A stretch of 64,000 nucleotides of DNA from contig JAQMWT010000065.1 in NCBI GenBank assembly GCA_029834535.1, forward strand, positions 21,349 through 85,348. Reading direction: 5' to 3'. The stretch's first letter is position 1. Every line of letters begins with the position of its first letter. Below the pieces are notes generated by a model. That model made no database searches, was not told the DNA's origin, and saw nothing but the letters and a program-made list of their open reading frames with translations. This document shows, piece after piece, positions 11,193 to 40,709 of the stretch. This stretch comes from Chrysophaeum taylorii. Taxonomy: Eukaryota > Sar > Pelagophyceae > Pelagomonadales > Pelagomonadaceae. A program made the translations under genes and the position numbers.

Positions 11193-14100
11193 ATGATGAA
11201 TATCGTGGCAATAAGCGCGTTGGCCGTCGCGGCGGCGCTCGAGGCGTCGCAGGTGGCGAAACTCCTCGCGAGCGACGGCGCCAGCGGCGATTACTTTGGG
11301 TCGTCGACCGCTGTCTACGAGTCGATGATCATCGTCGGCGCGTTCCGCGACGACAACAGCAATGGCCAGGACACGGGAGCGGCGTACGTGTTCAACGCGA
11401 CGACGCAGGTGGCGAAACTGGTCTCGGGTGAGAGTTCTGATTTTTTCGGGTGGAGCGTGTCGATCTTCAACTCGACGATCGTCGCGGGAGCTTACGACGA
11501 CGACGATCTGGGATCTGACGCGGGCGCGGTTTACGTCTTCGAGGGATCGAGCTTCGTTCAGACCGCCAAACTCACTGCGAGCGACGGGCAAGCTGGAGGC
11601 AGGTTTGGGTATGCCGTCTCGGTGTACGACGGCACGGTCGCCGTGGGAGCACCGGGCGTGAGTTCGCACGTAGGAGCGGCGTACGTATTCGACAACCACG
11701 CGGAGCGGTGCCGGTTGAACGCGAGCGACGGCCAGGTGGACAACGTGTTCGGATCGGCGATCGCGATCTACGAGAATGTGACTGTGGTTGGCGCGTATCG
11801 CGACGGGCAAAACGATACGGGCGCGGCCTACGTCTTCGAGGGATGCGTGGAGGTTGCGAAACTGACCGCGAGCGACGCCGACAACAACGACTACTTTGGA
11901 GACGCGGTCGCGATCTATAATCGCACCATCGTCGTCGGAGTGAGGTACGACGACGATATTGGGACAAACGCGGGCGCCGTCTACGTGTTTGACTACGAGG
12001 ATGGTGCGTACGCTTTGTCTGCCAAGCTCACCGCGAGCGACGGAGAACCTAAAAACAAATTTGGCTACTCGGTCGCGATCTTCGATGGCGCGATAATCGC
12101 CGGTGCCACGCGTGTCAACAATGCGGGCGCAGCCTACGTCTTCGAGTACGCCGACGGAAGTTACGTCCAGCGAACAGTGCTCAACGCGTCGGATACTGCG
12201 AAGGACGACTACTTCGGTTGCTCTTGCGGGGTCTACGACGGTCTAGTCGTCGTCGGCGCGTGCGGTGATGCCGATCTCGGCTACGAGGCTGGCTCCGCCT
12301 ACGTTTTTGAGATTGTGCCCTCCCCCACCGCCACACCCTCCACGGCCGCACCCTCGCTATCTCCATTGCCCAGCGAGGCGACCTTTCGTCCCTCGTCCAT
12401 TCCCACTCCGTTTCCAACGCCCTTGCCGTCGGCAGAGACCTATCTTCTGGGGACGACGTCTCCGTCGGCGTCGCCAACGCGCGTGCCCTCGCTACATCTA
12501 ACCGCGATACCTTCTCGTGGCTCAACCGCGGCGCCAACCAGCTATCCCGAGGTGCCACCCACGGTGATGCCCTCTTCGTCTCCGACAACGTCACCTTTGG
12601 GATTCCCTAGTGTTGCGCCGTCGATGCGTCCGTCGGCGTCACCCAAAATGGCGCCTACTTTGGTTCCCACAATATCACCATCGGACTCACCCACCGGGTT
12701 GCCGACGACCAATCCCCCTTCGGTGTCGCCCACGTTCGCTCCCACTCCACAACCGACGACAACACCGTCGGGCTCGCCCACTGCGGCACCGACCAGCTTT
12801 CCCTCCTCGGAGCTCCCTACGTTCGTACCCTCGGGGCTACCATCTGCATTGCCCAGCGAGGTGCCGACAACAACATGTCCGTCAGTGTTGCCCACGTTTT
12901 GGCCCACCCCGTCTCCGACAACGTCTCCTTCGGACTCGCCAACCGCAGCGCCAACCAGCTATCCCGTGATGTCACCCACAGTCGTCCCGTCTCTACCTCC
13001 GACGACGTCACCTTCGGGATTCCCTAGTGTTGCGCTGTCGAGGTGTCCGTCAGCGTCACCCACAATGGCGCCATTTCCGGCTCCGACAAAGTTACCGTCG
13101 GACTCACCCACCGAGTTGCCGACTACCAATCGCCCCTCAGTGTCGCCCACATTCGCTCCCACTCCGCAACCGATGACAACACCATCGGGATCACCCAATG
13201 CGGCACCGACCAGCTATCCCTCGGTGCTACCTACGTTCGTTCCCTCTCCAACAGCATTACCATCAGGATCGCCCAGCACGGTGCCGACATTATCACCCGC
13301 AGTGTCGCCTGCATTTATGACTTCTCCGCTCCCGACAACATCTCCTTCGGACTCGCCAATCACAGCGCCAACCAGCTATCCCTCGGCATCACCCACAGTG
13401 AGGCCCGCTTCGCCTCCGACAATGTCACCTTCGAGATTCCCTAGTCTGGCGCCGAAGAGGTGTCCGTCAGCATCACCCACAATGGCTCCTTCTCCAGCTC
13501 CGACAATGTCACCATCTGACTCACCCGCCGGGGTGCTGACTACCAATCATCCCTCGGTGTCTCCCACATTCGTTCCCACTCAGCCTCCGACGACAACACC
13601 ATCGGGCTCGCCTACTTCGACACCAGCCAGCTATCCCTCGGTGCTGCCCACGTTCGATCACTCTCCAACAGCATTTCCATCAGGATCGCCCAGCGGCATG
13701 CCAAAATTATCTCCCTCAGTGCTTCCTACATTGTTGACGTCTCCGCCCCCGACAACATCCCCTTCGGACTCGCCAATCACAGCGTCAACCAGCTATCCCT
13801 TGGCATCACCCACAGTGAGGCCCGCTTTGCCTCCGACAATGTCACCTTCGAGATTCCCTAGAACGGCGCCGTTGCGGTGTCCGTCGGCATCACCCAAAAT
13901 GGCTCCTTCTCCAGCTCCGACAATGTCACCATCTGACTCACTCACCGGGGTGCTGACTACCAATCATCCCTCGGTGTCTCCGACATTCGTTCCCACTCAG
14001 CCTCCGATGACAACACCATCGGGCTCGCCTACTTCGGTACCAGCCAGCTACCCCTCGGTGCTGCCCACGTTCGTTCCCTCTCCAACAGCATTTCCATCAG

Positions 14101-17100
14101 GATCGCCCAGCACGGTGCCGACATTATCACCCGCAGTGTCGCCTGCATTTATGACTTCTCCGCCCCCGACAACATCTCCTTCGGACTCGCCAATCACAGC
14201 GCCAACCAGCTATCCCTCGGCATCACCCACAGTGAGGCCCGCTTCGCCTCCGACAATGTCACCTTCGAGATTCCCTAGTCTGGCGCCGAAGAGTTGTCCG
14301 TCAGCATCACCCAAAATGGCTCCTTCTCCAGCTCCGACAATGTCACCATCTGACTCACCCACCGGGGTGCTGACTACCAATCATCCCTCGGTGTCTCCCA
14401 CATTCGTTCCCACTCAGCCTCCGACGACAACACCATCGGGCTCGCCTACGTCGGTACCAGCCAGCTATCCCTCGGTGCTACCTACGTTCGTGCCCTCTTC
14501 AACAGCATTTCCATCAGGATCGCCTAGCACGGTGCCGACACTATCACCCGCAGTGTCGCCTGCATTTATGACTTCTCCGCCCCCGACAACATCTCCTTCG
14601 GACTCGCCAATCACAGCGCCAACCAGCTATCCCTCGGCATCACCCACAGTGAGGCCCGCTTCGCCTCCGACAATGTCACCTTCGAGATTCCCTAGTCTGG
14701 CGCCGAAGAGTTGTCCGTCAGCATCACCCAAAATGGCTCCTTCTCCAGCTCCGACAATGTCACCATCTGACTCACCCACCGGGGTGCTGACTACCAATCA
14801 TCCCTCGGTGTCTCCCACATTCGTTCCCACTCAGCCTCCGACGACAACACCATCGGGCTCGCCTACGTCGGCACCAGCCAGCTATCCCTCGGTGCTACCT
14901 ACGTTCGTGCCCTCTTCAACAGCATTTCCATCAGGATCGCCCAGCACGGTGCCGACATTATCACCCGCAGTGTCGGCTGCATTTATGACTTCTCCGCCCC
15001 CGACAACATCTCCTTCGGACTCGCCAATCACAGCGCCAACCAGCTATCCCTCGGCATCACCCACAGTGAGGCCCGCTTCGCCTCCGACAATGTCACCTTC
15101 GAGATTCCCTAGTCTGGCGCCGAAGAGGTGTCCGTCAGCATCACCCAAAATGGCTCCTTCTCCAGCTCCGACAATGTCACCATCTGACTCACCCGCCGGG
15201 GTGCTGACTACCAATCATCCCTCGGTGTCTACCACATTCGTTCCCACTCAGCCTCCGACGACAACACCATCGGGCTCGCCTACGTCGGCACCAGCCAGCT
15301 ATCCCTCGGTGCTGCCCACGTTCGTTCCCTCTCCAACAGCATTTCCATTAGGATCGCCCAGCACGGTGCCGACATTGTCACCCGCAGTGTCGCCTGCATT
15401 TATGACTTCTCCACTCCCGACAACATCTCCTTCGGACTCGCCAATCACAGCGCCAACCAGCTATCCCTTGGCATCACCCACAGTGAGGCCCGCTTCGCCT
15501 CCGACAGTGTCACCTTCGAGATTCCCTAGAACGGCGCCGTTGAGGTGTCCGTCAGCGGCACCCATCGTGGCGCCATCTCTGGCTCCATCGGACCTTCCTA
15601 GCGGGTTGCCAACGACGTGTCCCTCAGTGTTACCCTCGTTCACGTCCTCGCTGCCACCGATGATGTCTCCATCAGGCTCGCCCACCGCAGCTCCGACCAG
15701 CATTCCCTCGACATCACCCACATTTGCACCCTCTCCGGCTTCGACGATGTCACCATCAGGCTCACCCAGCGAGGTGCCGACGACCTGTCGTTCCTCACTG
15801 TCGCCCTCACTCGTTCGCTCTCTATCTCCGACGACACCACGGTCTGACTCGCCCAATGCGGCGCCGACCAGCTATCCCTCAACACTACCCACCTTTGCGC
15901 TCTCGCTGCCTCTGACGACCTCACTTTCGGGCTTTCCAAGCGTGGCTCCAACCAGCTGTCCCTCGACCTCACCCACGGTCGCGTCCTTTACTCCAACGAA
16001 GTCTCCGTCAGGCTTACCACGCGATGCGCCAACAAGCTTTCCATCAGTGTCATACACATTCGCACCCTCTTCGCCTCCGACTACATCCCCTTCGCTCTTG
16101 CCAACCACGATGCCCACCGTGTATCCCTCGGCATCACTCATATTCCTGACCTCTCCATCTCCCACAACGTTACCTTTAGTCCCATCCAGCCAGTCGCCGA
16201 CCAGTTATCCCTCTGCATCACCTACAGTTGTTCCCACTACAACTCCAACACTGCCACCTTCAGGCTCTTCTAGAGCGTCGCCGACTAGCTATCCATCAGC
16301 GTCACCCACAGTCTCGCACTCTCTGCCTCCGACAATATTACCATCAGGCTCACCCAGCAAGGTGCCAACGATCATTGTTCCCTCGCTGTCACCCACCTTT
16401 GCTCCCTCTCTACCTCCGATGACACCGCCACCGTCTGGCATGCCCCATACGGCACCGATCAGCTGTCCCTCAATGTCACCCACACTTGCGCCGTCGCTTC
16501 CTCCGACGTCGTCACCTTCGGGATTCTCTGGCGCGGACCCGACCAGCTGTCCCACGTCATTGTCGACATTCGAACCATCACTGCCGCCGACAATGTCTCC
16601 GTCTGGCTCACCCAGCGACTTGCCGACAACTTGTCCATCAGTATCACCCACACTAGGACTCTCTCCACCTCCAGCGACTGTGCCATTGGGCTTGCCCACC
16701 ACTGCGCCCACCGCCCACCCCTGGGTCTCACCCTCGTTCGTGCCCTCTCCGCCTCTGACAACGTCACCTTCGGGTTCGCTCAAGCAGCCTCTGACGAGCT
16801 ATCCCTTTGCATCGCCCACAGTTGTGCCCACTGCGACTCCACACCTACCAGCTTCGGGTTCTGCTAGTGTGGCGCCGACAAGGTGTACAGTAACATCTCC
16901 CACGCTGGCGCCATCTCCGGCTCTGACAACGTCACTATCGAACTTACCCAGCGAGGTGCCGACGACTGGTCCCTCGGTCTCCTATTCTTCCTCACCGCCG
17001 CCTTTGACAATGTCACCTTCGGGTTCGCTCACTGTGGCACCGAAAAGCTATCCCTCTTCGTCACGCACATTTGCACCCTCGCTGCCTCCGACGACGTCAC

Positions 17101-20100
17101 CCTCTGGCTTCACGAACGCGGATCTGACCAGCTGTCCCTCGGCTTCACCCACAGTCGTACCTTTTCTGTCCCAAACAATGTCTCCGTCAGGTTTTCCGAG
17201 CGAGGTGCCACCACCAACCTTTCCATCAGTGTCACAAACATTCACACCCTCTCTGCTTCCCACTACGGCCCCATGGGGCTTGCCAACCGCGGTGCCCACT
17301 ATTTATCCCTCGGCGTCGCCCATATTCCTGCCCTCTCCACCTCCGACAACGTCACCTTCGGGCTCATCCAGCCAGCCGCCAACCAGCTGTCCCTCTTCAT
17401 CACCCAAAACTGTGCCCACCGCGACTCCGAAACTGCCGTCTCCGGGCTCTCCTAGTGTGGCGCCGACAAGTTGGCCATCGGCGTCACCCACGGTGGCGCC
17501 CTTTCTGGCTCCGACAATGTCTCTATCGAGCTCACCTATGGAGGTGCCGACGACCTGTCGTGCCTCAGTGTCGCCCTCGTTTGTTCCGTCTCTACCATCG
17601 ACGATGCCACCGTCTAGCTCACTGAATGCGGCACCGACACGCTGTCTCTCAACGTCACCTGCATTTGCGCCATCGCTGCCTCAAACGACGTCACCCTCGG
17701 TTTTGCCAAGCGTGGCTCTGACCAACGTTCCCTCGGCATCACCCACAGTCGCAGCCTTTGCGCCTCCAACGACGTCTCCGTCAGGCTTACCGATCGAGGT
17801 GCCAACAACCTTTCCAGCAGTGTCACACACATTTGCACCCTCTTCGCTTCCGACTACGGCGGCCCCATTGCGCTTGCCAACCGCGATGTTCACCACGTAT
17901 CCCTCGACGTCGCCCAAATTCCTACCATCTCCACCTCCAACAACGTCATCCAGGCAGCCGCCGACCATCTATCCCTCTGCATCACCCACAGTTCTTCCCA
18001 CAGAGATTCCGACGCTGCCACCTTCAGGCTCTTCTAGAGCGGCGCCGACTAGCTACCCACCAGCGTCACCCATAGTCGCGTCCTCTCCGCCTCCGATGAT
18101 GTTACCATCAGCCTCATCCAGCAAGGTGCCGACGACCTGTCGTCCCTCGGTATCGCGCACTGTCGCTCCCTCTCCAACACCGCCACCGTCTGGCATGCCC
18201 GACGCGGCACCGACAAGTTGTCCGTCACTGACGCCGACATTTGCGCTCTCGCTGCCTCTGACGTCGTCACCTTCGGGCTTCTATAGCGCGGATCCGACCA
18301 GCTGTCCCACATTGTCGTCGACACTCGCACAGTTACCGTCGGAATCACATAGCGCCACCCCGAAGACTTGTCCAGCAGCCGCACCTTCATTTGTGCCCAC
18401 GCTCTCTCCGACGACGTCACCTTTGGACTTGCCCAGCGCGGCGCCTACGAACTATCCCTCGATGTCACCTACACTCGCGCTCTCGTCGATTATTCCGACG
18501 ACTTTAATGTCGGACTCGCCTGCGAATGCTCCGACTGGAAATCCTGCGACTTCACCAATATTTGCGCCCACGCCGCCTCCGACGAAGTCACCTTTTGCCT
18601 TGCCCACCGTGGCGTCAGCTAGTGTTTCTACGTTCTCGCCCACGTTAACGCTCTCAGCACTTCCGAAGATGTCGCCCTCCGGAAGTGAGGTGCCGACGAC
18701 CTGTCTCTCGGCATCACCAACGTTCGCGCCCGCTCTGTCACCATCGATCCTACCAAACGCGGCGCCGACCAGCTGTTCCTCAGCGTCACCTGCATTTGTG
18801 CCTTTGAATCTCTCGACAGCGTCACCGTCGCGCATCACGGCTCCGACCAGCTATCCCTCGATGTTTCCGACTTTCGCGTCCTCGACACTTCCAACAGCGT
18901 TGCCGTTGAGCTCACCTATCGGAGCGCCATCAACATATCCCTCGGTGGCACCAACATTTGCGCGCTCGCGGATGTCTCCTTTGAGCTCGCCCACCGTGGT
19001 GCCGAGCAGCAATACCGTGATGTCACCCACATCTTCGCCGTCGATACTTCCGACGATGTTACGGTCGGACTCACCCCGAGCGGCACCGACGAGCTGTCTC
19101 TCGGTGTCACCCACGTTTACGTTGCCTCCGACCGCGATCCCTTCTGTCGTGCCCATCGCGACGCCGACCAGCCATCCCTCGGCGTCACCCACACGGGAGC
19201 CGTCTACATGCGCCCCTTCGATTCCACCTATGATGATACCATCGAGATCGCCCGACGTGGTGCCAACTTCCAATCCGTCTAAGCCACCCACATTTGGGTC
19301 CTCGTTACCTCCGACGACATCATCATCTCGATCTCACAGCGCGGCGCCAACCACCTGTCCCCCATCGTTCACTACATCCGCACCCTCTTTTCCTCCGACG
19401 ACGCTACCAAAGGGTTCGTCGAGTGCGATATCGACGACCTATCCCTCATACTCACCGTCATTCGTTCCCTCGCTGCATCCGACGACGCCACCAAGTGGAA
19501 CGTTCAGCATGGCCCCTACGAGTTTTCCCTCAGAGACACCAGTGTATCAGCCTTCCACGACGCCAGTGTATCAGCCTTCCACAGTCGTTCCCTCGTTGGG
19601 TACCACGACGATGTCAACAAAAGGATCCTCCAGCTCGGCCCCGATTATTTGTCCTACAGCCGCATCCGAGCAATCCAATGTCGCACCCTCGATACCTCCT
19701 GCGATGCCACCATCTAAATCGCCCAGCTCGGTGGCGGTGTACTCTCCTTCAATGTCACCCTCATCCGAGAGGAAAAGTCCAACTGCGCGTCCCGCGTACC
19801 CGTCGTCCACAGGACCGAGCTCGCAGCAAATTTTTCAACGCGTGGCATCACCGACTGCGCTTGAAGGCGCAAATCAAACAACCTTGTTCACAACTGAGTC
19901 ACCGACGTTGGTGCCTGAGAGCAATGAGTCTAGCAGCAGTGTGCCATCAATCAACATCAACCCGACGCCTTTGCCTTCAATGATCCTGACTGTTCATCCA
20001 ACCAACGAGCCCTCGCAGGATCCCACTCCAGTTCACACAAGCCCACCGTCGCATCATCCAACAAACTTGCCCTCTTCTCACACAAAAAGTGCAGCGCCGT

Positions 20101-23100
20101 CCATGCATCGCTCGCCGAGTCCAACGCGCGATCTGAGCAGCTGCCCGATACTACATCCTACGAGACAACCCTCGGCGGGCCCGACCTATGCCTCGACTGT
20201 CTTGGAGTCAACTCTAGAGCCAACAAGCAACGTGTTTATGGTATCGGCGGCGCCATCTCAGAAGCTCACTGTCACGCCGACCGTTCAGGTGGCAGCCGCT
20301 GGCATCGGAGCAACTCCGAGTCAAAAACTAACACACATACCAACGACTAATGTCTTCCTCGGTGGGTATGACTCCATATCGACAAATGCACCTTCGACAG
20401 AAGCACTTGGGACAGGGGAGGTCATGCTACCATCGGCAGCTCCGTCAAATTGGGCATGGCACCATGAAATGACATCGCCTTCTTCAGATGCATCAACAAT
20501 AGCGCCAGGTTCTAACTTCGAGGAGAATACTTACGCTCCGACATCCAGCAAGCACACGTCTTCGTTTAACACTTCCTCTGACGGGAGTAGCTACAATCCC
20601 AACGCGAGTGTCACGCTCTCACCCTCATCAGTTCAGCAGCGAGACGCAGCGGCCTCAACAACAGCAGTTCCAACAATAATAACCGAAGGTTCGACTTTTC
20701 CGACTTTTGCTGGTGCGCTAACAAAGTATCCAACTCCATATTCAGCTGCCGCGCCCTCTGCCTCTCCCATTGAGTATGGGCACCTAGCGGGCGTGACAAC
20801 CGTACCAACAACGACTGACGAGGCTTATCCTTCGACACACTCCACGATTCCATCCTTGGAGCCATCACTTGCTCGCTCCACTCTAGCTCCCTCCTCGGCA
20901 GAGAATTATGGTACTCCGGATACGAGCCCGGCGGCGGTGACTACGCCAGTTCCTTCCAATGTTGTCTCTACACAACATCCGACAAATTCTGTGATAGAAG
21001 TTCCAACGACAACCAGCGACGACTCGTGCTCGCGCGCTCGCGCTCTTAACCTGGTCCCGTCCGAACCGCAGTTGAGTCGTGCGAAGTTTGACGCGAGCGG
21101 TGGCATCGTAGCGATTGACTTTGACTCGCCCACCGACCAAGCATCATTTGCGGCGGGCGTAAGGTTCGATTGCGGTGCTGTTGTCAATTTCACTGCTGCC
21201 ACCGCCAATGAACAAGGCAGCTGTAACTGGGTTACCGCGTCGACGATAAGCGCAGACGTGACCACGGCACTCGGGGTGCTTCCCCGCACCACCGTATCGT
21301 TGCTCCCGGGCGTGCTCAAGTCTGAATGCAGCAGCGATGAAGCGTATTGCTCGTGCTATCAGTATGCCAATTCGTCGACGGTTTCGATAGCATCGCCCAA
21401 TCCCGCCGTAGTACCGACGGCCATTTTATCGGGCGCTACGAGTGTCGCTGCGTGCGCGGGCCTTAGTGTTGCATCGGATCTGTCGACCGGAAGCGGGGGC
21501 CGCGACTTCCGTTACTTTTGGAATGCCACGATGCTTCCAGCCACGAGTTCAGATGATGATGCACAATCCGTTCTGAAGAGTATACTTTCTCGCTCGAACA
21601 ACCTCGCAAGCGGCGGTTCTGCGACGCTCGAAGCAACCTCAGACGAGCTCGAGATAATGCTCGATGCTGGCAACGTCACCAGCCTGAGTATAAGCTTGAT
21701 AGTTGAAAATTTTTTCAGCGAGGTATCTGCGCCGTCGGACAGCTTCGTCGTCAGTATTAACGACGATCGTATCCCTCACGTCGAAATTGCGGGCGGCGTG
21801 CGACAAATGTTTCATCGATCGTCATCCGTCTCGATTAAGGCAGTTGCGTACGCGACGACGTGTGGCGGTAATTTATCGAGCGTCCACTCTGTAAAGTACA
21901 ACTGGGAGCTGTACAATGTCACGTTCGACGAGGCGCAACACGAGAGCGTCGTACCGTCGGGGGTTTTTTCCACCTCGAACGACGATCGCTTTTTCAAAGT
22001 CGACGAGTACGCGCTCCACGTTCAAACCTACGTGCTACTGGTGACAGTCACCGACACGACGACAAACGCGAACAACAGCGCGTACTCGTACTTGAACGTC
22101 ACGCGTGCATCTGTCACGGCCGTGATCACGGGTGCCGATCGCACGGTTTCTCGACGCAGCCGAGAAGTCGTCGAACTTTCAGCTGCTAGCTCGTACGACG
22201 ATGACGTGAGCAGTGCGACAGGAGCTGAATCCGGCCTTCGGTTTTTCTGGACGTGCACCACGAGTTCGTGCCCGTCGTTCGACGAAACGGTCGCGATCAA
22301 CATCAGCGAGCTTGGAGCTCAAACCCAGAATGTTTCTGTGGGCCTCACAGCTAGTAGCGATGATGGGCGTGGGTCCTCGACCTCTGCCTTTCTTTGGATT
22401 GTGAACGAAGCCAACACGCCCGAGGTCTTTGTCACCCAACCGGAGCGTTCTACGACTCTCGTGAGTAACAGCGACGACATAATTTTGGACGGTACCATTG
22501 TTATTGAAAACTCAAATGCGCCGCCGTCCGCGCTGACGTCGACGTGGTCGTTGGCAAGCGGTGAGTTGAACGATGGCGATACTCTGGCGTCGACTGCCCG
22601 GACTGACGTGACTATTATCTGGAGCTCGACGACGACGACGGCGGGAGAAAGCCTGATCCACAACTTGGTGCTTCCTGCCGGTATCCTCATTTCCGGGGGA
22701 GCATATACATTCGTGCTAGAAGCAAAGTCTAGCAATCTAACTGGTTTTGCACAAGTCGTGGTCGAATGTGCAATGCCACCAATTGGTGGCAATGTCGCGG
22801 TATCTCCGACGAGCGGTTATAACACGCTGACAAGCTTCGAACTGACGACTGCCAACTGGGCGACCTCCTATCCACCGCTCAAATACGCTTTTTTCGCGCG
22901 TACGGGTCAATTATCAAGCACGCTTCGGACCAGCACGAAGGAAACGTCGCTCTCGTCGGCGTATTTACCGTCGGGAAACCCGAACGCGACGGTGTCCGTG
23001 GCGAGTACTCGGCGTTGTTCTGGAGGATACGCGAATTGTCTTGACCAACGTTTTTTTCTTGTGCGCAGGTAGCCACCGACGATCTCGGCGGCGAAGGAAG

Positions 23101-37044: not shown

Positions 37045-37094
37045 CAGAAGGACAACAACCAACCAGAAGGACGACGAGGACAACGAAAGATGGA

Positions 37095-40000
37095 ATGATG
37101 GCCCGTCGTCTCATGTCGTCGTCGAGGAGCCGGCTCGCGCTGGTTGTCAACAGCGGGTCGTCGTCGATAAAATTTGGGGTATTCGAGATGCGGACGAACG
37201 CGAGCACGCTGCAGGTGGAGGCGTCGTTGGCGTGCGGCGGCCTCGTGGGCCGCATAGGGTCCGAGGCCGAAGTCAAGTTCAGCGTGGGCGAGTCGACGTT
37301 CCAGTCGTCGGGGGAAGATATCCCCGACCACGCCGCCGGGCTCGCGCGGATCCTGGGCGTGATCGAGGACAAGGTGGGGTCGTTGGAGGCGGTCGAGGTC
37401 GTCGGACACCGGATCGTGCACGGCGGACCGGATTTCAAAAGGGCGACGGTGATCGACGGCGGCGTGGAGGCGGCGATCGAGGAGACCGCGCCTCTGGCGC
37501 CGCTCCACAATCCCGCCGGGCTGTTGGGGGTACGGGTCGCCAAGGCGAAGCTTCCGCACGCGCCGCACGTCGCGGTTTTTGACACGGCTTTCCACGTCAA
37601 GTCTATGAGTCCGGAAGCGTACCGGTATGCCGTGCCGAGGCAGCTCTACGAGCTGGGGGTCCGGCGGTACGGGTTTCACGGGACGTCGTACGCCTACATC
37701 GCCCGGGCCCTTCCCGACGTGAAGAACATGATAATTTTTCATTTGGGGAACGGGGCGTCGTGCTGCGCCGTGTCTCGCGGCGAATGCGTCGAGACTTCGA
37801 TGGGACTCACGCCCCTCGAAGGGCTGATGATGGGGACGCGGTGCGGGGACCTCGACTGCGGGGTCGTCTCGTACGCGTGCCGCGAGCTCGGGAAGACTCC
37901 GGCGGAGGTCGACTCGATGCTCAACAAGCAGAGCGGTCTTCTGGGCGTGTCGGGGGTCTCGTCCGACATGCGCGCGGTGCGCGAGGCCGCCGAGGCGGGG
38001 AACGCGGACGCGAAGCTCGCGCGCGAAATGTACGCCGAGCGCGTCCGCAAGTACTTGGGGGCCTACATGGTGAAGCTGGGGGGTCACGTCGACGCGATCG
38101 TGTTCACGGCCGGCGTCGGCGAGAACGACGCCGGGTTGAGGGAGATGGTGTGTCGCGGATTGGAGCCCATGGGGATCTCGCTGGATCCCGTCAAGAACCG
38201 CGGACGACGACGAGAAGGGGATATTCGGGACGTTTCGACGCCCTTTTCGAGGACAAAGGTCCTCGTCGCCCCGACAAACGAGGAGTCGATGATCGCGGTG
38301 GAAGCTACCGAGGTCGCGGGCGTCATGGCAGACGCGATCGCGGCCGCCAAGGCCGCGCGCGTCGCGAGGACCATGCTTCCGTCGCTGCCGCGCTCCCCCA
38401 CCAGGCCGCCTTCGTTGCCACCGCCGCCGCCGAAACGCCGCCACGTCATCGGGAGTCTGGGGCGCGCGGTTTACGTCGACGGCGTCGGCCCGACGGCCGC
38501 GGAGGAGCTCGGGCTCCTCTCGCAGGTGACGGCGACCGCGCCGAGAATAGGCTATTTCCGACCGTTCTGCGACGCCGACGACCGCAAGCTTCTGACGATG
38601 CGCACCGTCTTCCAGCTGACGAGCAGCAGCATCGACGCGATGCGCGGCATGTCGGCGAGCGAAGCGACGGCGATGCTGGCCGCGGGTCGCGAAGACGAGT
38701 GCATGGACGTCGTCATCTCCAAGTTTGTCGACTACGCGCGCGATAAGGACTTCGTGCTGGTGTCGCGCGGCCACCTCGGCGCCATCGGGGACCCCCACTG
38801 GACCGCCAAGGTCGCCGGGGCCCTCGGGCTGCCGGTCGTCTACGTGCTCCACGAACCGCGCGACGACGACAAGGAGATCGTGCTGCGCGCTAAGGACGCC
38901 CTCGATCAACGGCGCGTGCGTCTCGCGGGCGTCGTCGCGACGACCCGCGACGAGGAGGCCGCGCGCAACACGCTCGAGAATATGGGGGTGTTCCCGGCGG
39001 CCCTCCTTCCGCCCGACGAGAGATTTTCTCAGATCACGATGGCCGAGATCGCCGCGACCCTCGAGGCCCGCGTTGCTTTTGGCCACGCCGACCTCGCGTC
39101 CTCGACGATGCGCGGGGTTATCGTTGCGACGCGCCACGTCGCCGAGTGCATCGACACGCTCCGCAAACTCCCGCCGGGCCAGCTCGTGGTGACGCACGCG
39201 GCTCGAGCCGATCTCGTGCACTCGCTCGTCCTCGCGCACCAGACGATCGACTACTTCCCCCCGATCGCCGGGCTCCTGCTGTCGGGCACCGACGGCGCCG
39301 CGACCGAGCATCACCTCGACGCGTCGCCCGACGACGCCGCGCAGCTCGCAAAGACCCTCGACCTCCTGAGCTGCGTCCCCTCGACCGTCAGAGTACCTCC
39401 GATTTTGTGCGTCTCCGAGTCCACCTACGAGGCGGCCAACGCGGTGCACGAGATGACCCCCGTCATGCTGCCGTCGTCGACGGCCAAAATCGAAGCCGCC
39501 CAACTCCTCTTCGAGACCTACCTCGACCCCGACTTCAGGGACGCCCTCGCCGACCTCCGCCACGACGCCGCGATCGTGACCCCGCGAATGTTCCAGCACC
39601 ACCTCTTCGCCAAGGCGCGCGCGGCACCCCAGCGGATCGTCCTGCCCGAAGGCGAAGACCGCCGCGTCGTCATGGCCGCCGGCCAGCTCATTTCGCGCAA
39701 GGTCTGCGACGTGACCATCCTCGGGAACCCCGAGACCGTCAAAGCCCTCGCGTCCGAAGCCAGAGTCGACGTCGACGGCGCGAGAATCGTCGATACCCAC
39801 GGCGAACCCCCGCCCCCCGAGCTCGTCAAGGCCCTCGTCGACGCCCGAAAACACAAGGGCATGACCTACGACGTCGCCGCCGGTCTGCTCCGGGACGACG
39901 CGAACTACTACGGCACTATGCTCCTCCACCTCGGCCTCGCCGACGGCATGGTCAGCGGCGCCTGCCACTCGACGGCCTCCACGATGCGCCCGGCTCTCCA

Positions 40001-40580
40001 GATCATCAAGATGGCACCGGGCTTCTCAATCGTCTCCTCCGTCTTCTTCATGCTCCTCGCCGACGGCGTCAAGGTTTTTGGCGACTGCGCCATCAACGTC
40101 TCGCCCTCGGCCGTCGAACTCGCGCAAATCGCCGCCGCCTCCGCCCTCACCGCCCGCGCCTTTGGTATCGACCCGCGCATCGCGATGCTCTCCTACGCGA
40201 CCGGCGATTCCAACAAAGGCGACCTCATCGACAAGGTCAGGGACGCGACCCGCCTCGCCCGCGACCTCGCCCCCGACGACCTCTTCGAAGGCCCCATCCA
40301 GTTCGACGCCGCGGTCGACCCCGCCGTCGCCGCCGTCAAATACAACGGCGAGCAAAATCCCGTCGCCGGCGTCGCCAACGTCTGCATCTTCCCCACCCTC
40401 GACGCGGGCAACTCGGCATACAAGGCCGTGCAGCAGGCCTCCAAGTGCATCGCCATCGGGCCCGTCATGCAGGGTCTCAAAAAACCCGTCAACGACCTCT
40501 CCCGCGGATGCACCGTCAGCGACATCGTCAACACCGTCGCAGTCACCTGCCTCCAGAGCCTCCAAGCGAAGAAGAAATAA
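37095..40580 (+). CDS. Acetate kinase - phosphate acetyltransferase fusion
   Basis: This 1,161-aa intronless protein joins two enzymes of the acetate/acetyl-CoA pathway. Residues about 14-420 are acetate kinase: VNSGSSSIKF, GHRIVHGG, VFDTAFH, YGFHGTSY, HLGNGAS, TRCGDLD and TAGVGEN carry the known substrate and catalytic residues. A Pro-rich linker (about 430-450) leads to a full-length type II Pta: a BioD-like N-terminal domain (starting near VIGSLGRAVYVDG, with DFVLVSRG), a DRTGG-type middle (ERFSQITMAEIAATL), and a C-terminal PTA_PTB domain (RIVLPEGEDRRV, GLADGMVSGACHSTA). NDLSRGCTVSD near 1,136 matches the Ser-Arg...Asp active-site set described in Methanosarcina Pta. It would interconvert acetate, ATP and CoA with acetyl-CoA through acetyl phosphate. 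The N-terminus MMARRLMSSSRSRLA resembles a mitochondrial presequence (inference). Domain order equals the bacterial ackA-pta operon order. Confidence 0.95.
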   Translation: MMARRLMSSSRSRLALVVNSGSSSIKFGVFEMRTNASTLQVEASLACGGLVGRIGSEAEVKFSVGESTFQSSGEDIPDHAAGLARILGVIEDKVGSLEAVEVVGHRIVHGGPDFKRATVIDGGVEAAIEETAPLAPLHNPAGLLGVRVAKAKLPHAPHVAVFDTAFHVKSMSPEAYRYAVPRQLYELGVRRYGFHGTSYAYIARALPDVKNMIIFHLGNGASCCAVSRGECVETSMGLTPLEGLMMGTRCGDLDCGVVSYACRELGKTPAEVDSMLNKQSGLLGVSGVSSDMRAVREAAEAGNADAKLAREMYAERVRKYLGAYMVKLGGHVDAIVFTAGVGENDAGLREMVCRGLEPMGISLDPVKNRGRRREGDIRDVSTPFSRTKVLVAPTNEESMIAVEATEVAGVMADAIAAAKAARVARTMLPSLPRSPTRPPSLPPPPPKRRHVIGSLGRAVYVDGVGPTAAEELGLLSQVTATAPRIGYFRPFCDADDRKLLTMRTVFQLTSSSIDAMRGMSASEATAMLAAGREDECMDVVISKFVDYARDKDFVLVSRGHLGAIGDPHWTAKVAGALGLPVVYVLHEPRDDDKEIVLRAKDALDQRRVRLAGVVATTRDEEAARNTLENMGVFPAALLPPDERFSQITMAEIAATLEARVAFGHADLASSTMRGVIVATRHVAECIDTLRKLPPGQLVVTHAARADLVHSLVLAHQTIDYFPPIAGLLLSGTDGAATEHHLDASPDDAAQLAKTLDLLSCVPSTVRVPPILCVSESTYEAANAVHEMTPVMLPSSTAKIEAAQLLFETYLDPDFRDALADLRHDAAIVTPRMFQHHLFAKARAAPQRIVLPEGEDRRVVMAAGQLISRKVCDVTILGNPETVKALASEARVDVDGARIVDTHGEPPPPELVKALVDARKHKGMTYDVAAGLLRDDANYYGTMLLHLGLADGMVSGACHSTASTMRPALQIIKMAPGFSIVSSVFFMLLADGVKVFGDCAINVSPSAVELAQIAAASALTARAFGIDPRIAMLSYATGDSNKGDLIDKVRDATRLARDLAPDDLFEGPIQFDAAVDPAVAAVKYNGEQNPVAGVANVCIFPTLDAGNSAYKAVQQASKCIAIGPVMQGLKKPVNDLSRGCTVSDIVNTVAVTCLQSLQAKKK

Positions 40581-40671: not shown

Positions 40672-40709
<38 letters not shown>

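Follow-up and report, generated by a model that had tools for sequence, protein, structure and literature searches.

A single open reading frame in an ochrophyte-like alga predicted to join acetate kinase and phosphotransacetylase

Acetate kinase (Ack) and phosphotransacetylase (Pta, also PAT) have been described in Chlamydomonas as separate proteins, PAT1/ACK2 and PAT2-ACK1 (PMC3660698; PMC8003979), the genes of PAT2 and ACK1 being contiguous (PMC3660698). In Volvox, ACKA and a phosphate acetyltransferase lie in one cluster near hydrogenase genes (PMC4416025), and ACK is partnered with PTA in both Chlamydomonas and Phytophthora (PMC9983610). A polyprotein of the hydrogenase-24 kDa-51 kDa kind is known from Nyctotherus ovalis, and it is described as carrying one signal only, at its N-terminus (PMC2216082). 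Here, we describe a gene in a stretch of 64,000 nucleotides from Chrysophaeum taylorii (contig JAQMWT010000065.1; the whole stretch is referred to as the window) whose product, judged by its sequence, combines AckA and a long-form (class II) Pta, both complete, in one chain. We consider it fairly probable that this gene, nuclear and from an ochrophyte-like alga, encodes a single bifunctional enzyme, predicted to form acetate with a gain of ATP in dark anoxia.

The frame opens with the ATG at 37095 and closes with the TAA at 40578-40580; it holds no internal stop (0 found), and its product would have a mass of about 123 kDa. An earlier interpretation made from the letters alone, hereafter the sequence-only reading, had proposed one polypeptide with these coordinates, strand, and frame, and the translation agrees with it. 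The features are the following:

37095..40580, + strand: AckA-Pta fusion gene, a single open frame of 1161 residues, apparently intronless
37095..37133, + strand: N-terminal extension of 13 residues, basic, ahead of the kinase fold
37134..38321, + strand: acetate kinase part, residues ~14-409, with conserved active-site motifs
38322..38480, + strand: linker of ~50 residues (~410-462), borders approximate
38481..39581, + strand: Pta N-terminal region, BioD-like AAA_26 and DRTGG, placed by Pfam, NCBIfam, and alignment
39582..40577, + strand: Pta catalytic domain PTA_PTB, residues 832-1152, with conserved NDLSRGC
37090..37098, + strand: two-codon upstream open reading frame ATG GAA TGA, overlapping the fusion start codon

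The Pfam model Acetate_kinase matches residues 15-401 over positions 2-391 of its 392 (E 1.6e-129; 432 bits, cut-off 22), and PTA_PTB is matched over its entire length (1-319 of 319) at E 8.2e-111. Upstream of PTA_PTB lie AAA_26 (residues 472-632; 29.8 bits, cut-off 27) and DRTGG (residues 651-786; 31.9 bits, cut-off 25.2), and the three domains stand in the order of a class II phosphotransacetylase, all above their Pfam cut-offs. The NCBIfam model PRK05632 (Pta) covers residues 471-1159 with positions 20-707 of its 708 (608 bits, cut-off 418), and ackA TIGR00016 scores 420 bits against a cut-off of 293. In a sequence search, the nearest solved structures were acetate kinases for the first half (best 2iir, E 1.2e-99) and phosphate acetyltransferases for the Pta half (best 7t88). 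It is because of these family matches and closest structures that we regard both enzymes as complete, and at such scores chance is excluded as an explanation of the predicted domains. Both had been called full length beforehand, which holds; the presence of AAA_26 and DRTGG, and thus of more than the catalytic domain in the Pta half, goes beyond that earlier description. Each enzyme alone is ordinary, and as far as could be seen it is the architecture that is uncommon among what was compared.

All the acetate kinase motifs considered (VNSGSSS, GHRIVHGG, VFDTAFH, YGFHGTS, MGTRCGD, and PTNEE) were found, as judged by alignment with the solved acetate kinase 1g99 and five bacterial proteins. We take the catalytic residues of the kinase to be the N of VNSGSSS, the R of GHRIVHGG, the D of VFDTAFH, the H of YGFHGTS, the R of MGTRCGD, and the E of PTNEE, and NDLSRG near the Pta C-terminus is presumably the catalytic motif of that half. 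The motifs on which the sequence-only reading had relied were all located in the translation: VFDTAFH starts at residue 161, YGFHGTS at 192, MGTRCGD at 246, and NDLSRGC at 1133. The conserved families and motifs predict acetate kinase and phosphotransacetylase activities.

The linker consists of an Ala-rich amphipathic stretch followed by a Pro-rich basic part. In the alignment, four of the five bacterial Ack proteins stop short of it and the tail of the Burkholderia Ack lies partly inside; the right border is approximate because the aligner also placed the first ~10 residues of four bacterial Pta proteins within the linker. Its G+C content (GC) is 0.72, 0.65, and 0.88 at the three codon positions, the last being the whole-frame value (0.88), as expected if the linker is translated, though the region is GC-rich throughout. 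When the frame is divided into four sections, position-3 GC stays at 0.86-0.89 in each. A missed stop at the linker had been raised as a concern; there is none in frame, and none closes the kinase half.

We searched the alga's own genome (70.8 Mb, 697 contigs), matching families exon by exon. The whole fusion protein matches one place, its own locus in the same assembly. Acetate_kinase and PTA_PTB give one match each, both in the 1179-residue stop-to-stop frame of the fusion; among the 14 control genomes, the same searches matched Acetate_kinase in nine and PTA_PTB in ten. The fusion is apparently the only gene for either enzyme in this alga, though an exon-by-exon search could overlook a paralogue that is split into very small exons. 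The genome also holds 84 light-harvesting matches, counted in the same way, and fucoxanthin-chlorophyll proteins are the nearest PDB entries for one light-harvesting protein. The rubisco large chain (488 residues, contig C697) is nearest to red-type rubiscos, the best PDB entries being, we assume, from diatom species. Because of these light-harvesting genes and the red-type rubisco we regard the host as an ochrophyte-like alga, as the sequence-only reading had supposed in speaking of an alga. On contigs C88, C539, and others, the light-harvesting matches form closely spaced arrays with nearly equal scores.

In the mechanism that we propose, the Pta half would form acetyl phosphate and CoA from acetyl-CoA and phosphate, and the Ack half would then make acetate and ATP by phosphoryl transfer to ADP. 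The acetyl-CoA would most likely come from the pyruvate formate-lyase (PFL) of the same genome, in which case one extra ATP per pyruvate could be gained in dark anoxia; the alga probably draws energy from the fusion once oxygen is exhausted. The fusion would fix a 1:1 ratio and one location of the two enzymes, and any gain might lie in keeping acetyl phosphate, a labile and reactive compound, local; the channelling put forward in the sequence-only reading is conjectural. We infer the activity of the enzyme, the direction in which it would run, its conditions, and its location.

The anaerobic acetate role, hinted at previously, gains likelihood from three companions in the same genome: a PFL-like gene, a gene resembling the PFL activase, and a hydrogenase fusion. 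The single PFL-like match is a 769-residue frame on contig C456 (L012:1072-3381, − strand). Head to head with it, ~150 bases apart, stands the activase-like gene (L012:3532-4350, + strand), which encodes a 272-residue radical-SAM protein that fits the PFL activase model best. The FeFe-hydrogenase family gave four matches in the own genome (controls, 1 of 14). The best is a 1186-residue protein on contig C675 (L068:974-4534, − strand) with the domains Fer2_4, Fer4, H-cluster, Fe_hyd_SSU, a 2Fe-2S thioredoxin-like domain (NuoE-type), Nuo51, and NADH_4Fe-4S; it passes the FeFe_hydrog_A model (430 vs 406 bits), and its best fit is the model of the NADH-dependent group A6, below the cut-off (598 vs 765). 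We take the second match (L067) to be a Narf-type protein and not a hydrogenase. It also speaks for the role that no match in the own genome was found for XFP_N (phosphoketolase family; 4 of 14 controls, 3 above cut-off) or for AcetylCoA_hydro (4 of 14 controls); these absences cover the two families only, no search having been aimed at PFO or at ADP- and AMP-forming acetyl-CoA synthetases.

Several points weigh against this role. The PFL-like protein falls slightly under the NCBIfam equivalog cut-off for formate C-acetyltransferase (974 vs 994 bits), and the activase-like protein is under its own (218 vs 232). The Ack and Pta reactions are both reversible. Finally, a second species with the same fusion was not found in scans of genome and viral contigs, the queries of which reach close relatives only. 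A broader scheme, in which a red-plastid alga would have assembled the energy metabolism of its anaerobic phases from operon-like polyproteins, with Ack-Pta making ATP from acetyl-CoA and keeping acetyl phosphate local, an NADH-linked hydrogenase-NuoE-NuoF protein removing electrons, and PFL supplying acetyl-CoA, possibly in the mitochondrion, is a tentative and rather doubtful extension.

Regarding location, the N-terminus had been described as mitochondrial in appearance. The basic extension is indeed there, but the mitochondrial reading is weak because the extension spans only ~13 residues with a modest hydrophobic moment: the first five windows give 0.27-0.34, below the 95th percentile of the protein (0.446), and no clear amphipathic helix is seen. 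A plastid-type signal was not seen by eye in comparison with the start of a light-harvesting protein from the own genome. The upstream open reading frame ATG GAA TGA could tune translation of the fusion.

The domain order had been equated with that of the bacterial operon, which is borne out in part. Thirteen plasmid loci, picked from matches to one or both halves, were read, and in ten of them ordinary ackA and pta stand side by side. The order is ackA then pta in seven (Pseudomonas aeruginosa, E. coli, Serratia, Burkholderia, Deinococcus, Aeromonas, and Acinetobacter), as in the alga, but pta then ackA in three (Nocardia, Phocaeicola, and Campylobacter); this share is not a survey, as loci were chosen for matching both halves. 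In the Thiodictyon locus, an enoyl-CoA hydratase/phosphate acetyltransferase gene precedes the kinase, and in the Pseudomonas DR48 and Embleya loci one half only was matched. Deinococcus has a 4-base overlap between the two genes, and in Burkholderia, where pflB and pflA precede them, they are 2 bases apart. Because such genes overlap or nearly touch, it is conceivable that a small frame change could have made the fusion, either in a donor or after transfer. The Burkholderia plasmid row (L055:1-5828) reads pflB-pflA-ackA-pta-formate/nitrite transporter, functions much as in the alga.

No such fusion was seen among the bacterial matches listed. In the alignment, identity to bacterial proteins is 41-46% for Ack (five proteins) and 34.5-35.8% for Pta (four), and it reaches at most 49% among the matches listed. 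Of 392 Bacillota genomes, 376 had a match; the best matches listed, all to the Ack half, included no fusion, and their longest open frame has 538 residues. Matches occurred in 533 plasmid records, 24 of them covering at least 80% of the query, and none of the 30 records listed held both halves in one piece. Two candidates were discarded: a Nocardia Ack frame (877 residues, one stop counted inside the match) has its Pta in another frame, and no Ack match was seen in the 1020-residue stop-to-stop frame that contains a Pseudomonas plasmid Pta. A single-protein query of genome contigs returned two Bacilli loci, matching the Pta half, and the same kind of query, which finds close relatives only, gave no match to the fusion in viral contigs.

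Separate trees of the two halves had been suggested to decide whether both came from one bacterial donor. They were built, and neither half stands beside any bacterium with support. The Ack tree has 30 rows, thinned from 46 by keeping every second Bacillota row after removal of the duplicate loci L002, L003, L015, L016, and L019; the tree of the Pta catalytic domain has 14. In each tree the fusion sits on a long branch (1.05 for Ack, 1.02 for Pta), which is unplaced in the former. In the latter, Phocaeicola and two Bacillota short forms make up a clade to which the fusion does not belong; it groups, without resolution, with Nocardia, Pseudomonas DR48, Campylobacter, and a clade that unites seven long forms from proteobacteria and Deinococcus. 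Given the long branches, the lack of a supported neighbour, and a sample without cyanobacteria, chlamydiae, other algae, and more, we claim no donor.

Among the 18 neighbouring frames, 11 matched Pfam families at E 0.001 or better (one of them under the cut-off) and 7 had no match. These neighbours are of eukaryotic type, and their matches include strumpellin, an MTR4-like helicase, a kinase with a cyclic-nucleotide-binding domain, FG-GAP/REJ, Cu/Zn superoxide dismutase, and DFRP_C. One uninterrupted frame of 3959 residues at 11193-23072 (+ strand) has seven FG-GAP_2 stretches and a REJ domain. A (CGA)11 repeat lies at 40673-40705, ~90 bases 3′ of the fusion stop codon, and the window holds twelve other exact triplet runs of at least 8 units each.

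As in yeast Arg5,6, the protein might be a precursor polyprotein, imported as one chain; a cut in the basic linker would then release Ack and Pta to act separately. Residues 414-461, the longest acid-free run in the protein (48 residues), contain no acidic residue and nine K/R, the hydrophobic moment of 18-residue windows starting at 416-422 is 0.55-0.61, above the 95th percentile, and an in-frame Met is found at residue 427. However, this presequence-like reading of the linker is weak, because an acid-free run of that length and basicity arose in 354 of 5000 composition shuffles and windows in folded domains have equally high moments (0.62 at 1120 and 1044). Ala/Pro-rich linkers are also expected in GC-rich genes, and the Nyctotherus polyprotein, as described, has its one signal at the N-terminus (PMC2216082). 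We therefore regard cleavage as unlikely. We would put at much the same low level the reverse direction, in which acetate is activated to acetyl-CoA, either for growth on acetate or for recycling released acetate; the reversibility of both reactions favours it, but the PFL-like, activase-like, and NADH-linked hydrogenase-type fusion genes point to fermentation.

Doubts about the gene itself carry less weight than these two possibilities. Two separate genes could have been joined by an error of sequencing or assembly or by a missed intron: around the linker there are 33 GT..AG pairs of multiple-of-three length, and the match in the own genome, being the same place in the same assembly, provides no independent check of the joining. 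Yet no stop occurs anywhere in the frame, leaving Ack without one of its own, the ~50 codons between the folds probably leave little space in which a terminator and a promoter could fit, and an intron of multiple-of-three length, possible on paper, would still leave the fusion unbroken. An artefact of this kind appears very improbable. Contamination by bacteria, or an insertion of bacterial DNA in the very recent past, would account for the bacterial type of both enzymes, but the flanking frames match strumpellin, the MTR4-like helicase, the cyclic-nucleotide-domain kinase, and the DFRP_C protein, the identity to listed bacterial matches is at most 49%, and position-3 GC is even along the frame; we find this explanation scarcely credible. 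The bifunctional acetate-forming enzyme thus remains our preferred reading.

Neither an Ack-Pta nor a Pta-Ack fusion was found by phrase in a partial literature or among the titles and abstract starts listed by wider searches. Earlier annotation in algal databases is quite possible, since that literature was partial and the comparison was made without a eukaryotic protein database. In all other cases compared, the two enzymes that share acetyl phosphate are separate proteins. With its sole Ack and Pta matches in the fusion, this red-plastid alga would offer a one-gene test of whether coupling helps and a single knock-out target for the formation of acetate by fermentation. As a rare shared character, the fusion may also help to trace the routes by which algae acquired anaerobic pathways.

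The yeast Arg5,6 precursor is likewise a single chain in which a kinase from an acyl-phosphate pathway is linked to its partner enzyme; it is cleaved in mitochondria, and its pathway is unrelated to Ack-Pta. The bacterial ackA-pta operon with class II Pta (E. coli, Pseudomonas, Burkholderia, and Deinococcus) has the same enzymes, the same order, and the long Pta, but makes two proteins where the alga would make one. The PAT/ACK pairs of Chlamydomonas and Volvox are likewise algal and acetate-forming, whereas they are encoded by separate genes in green algae and the fusion belongs to a red-plastid alga. The Nyctotherus hydrogenase polyprotein resembles the fusion as an operon-like joining of bacterial-type anaerobic modules in a eukaryote, but its enzymes differ from Ack-Pta, which makes it a parallel and not a relative. 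Closer to it is the 1186-residue protein of the alga, in which hydrogenase, NuoE-like, and NuoF-like parts follow one another in the order of the Nyctotherus polyprotein, here in a photosynthetic alga.

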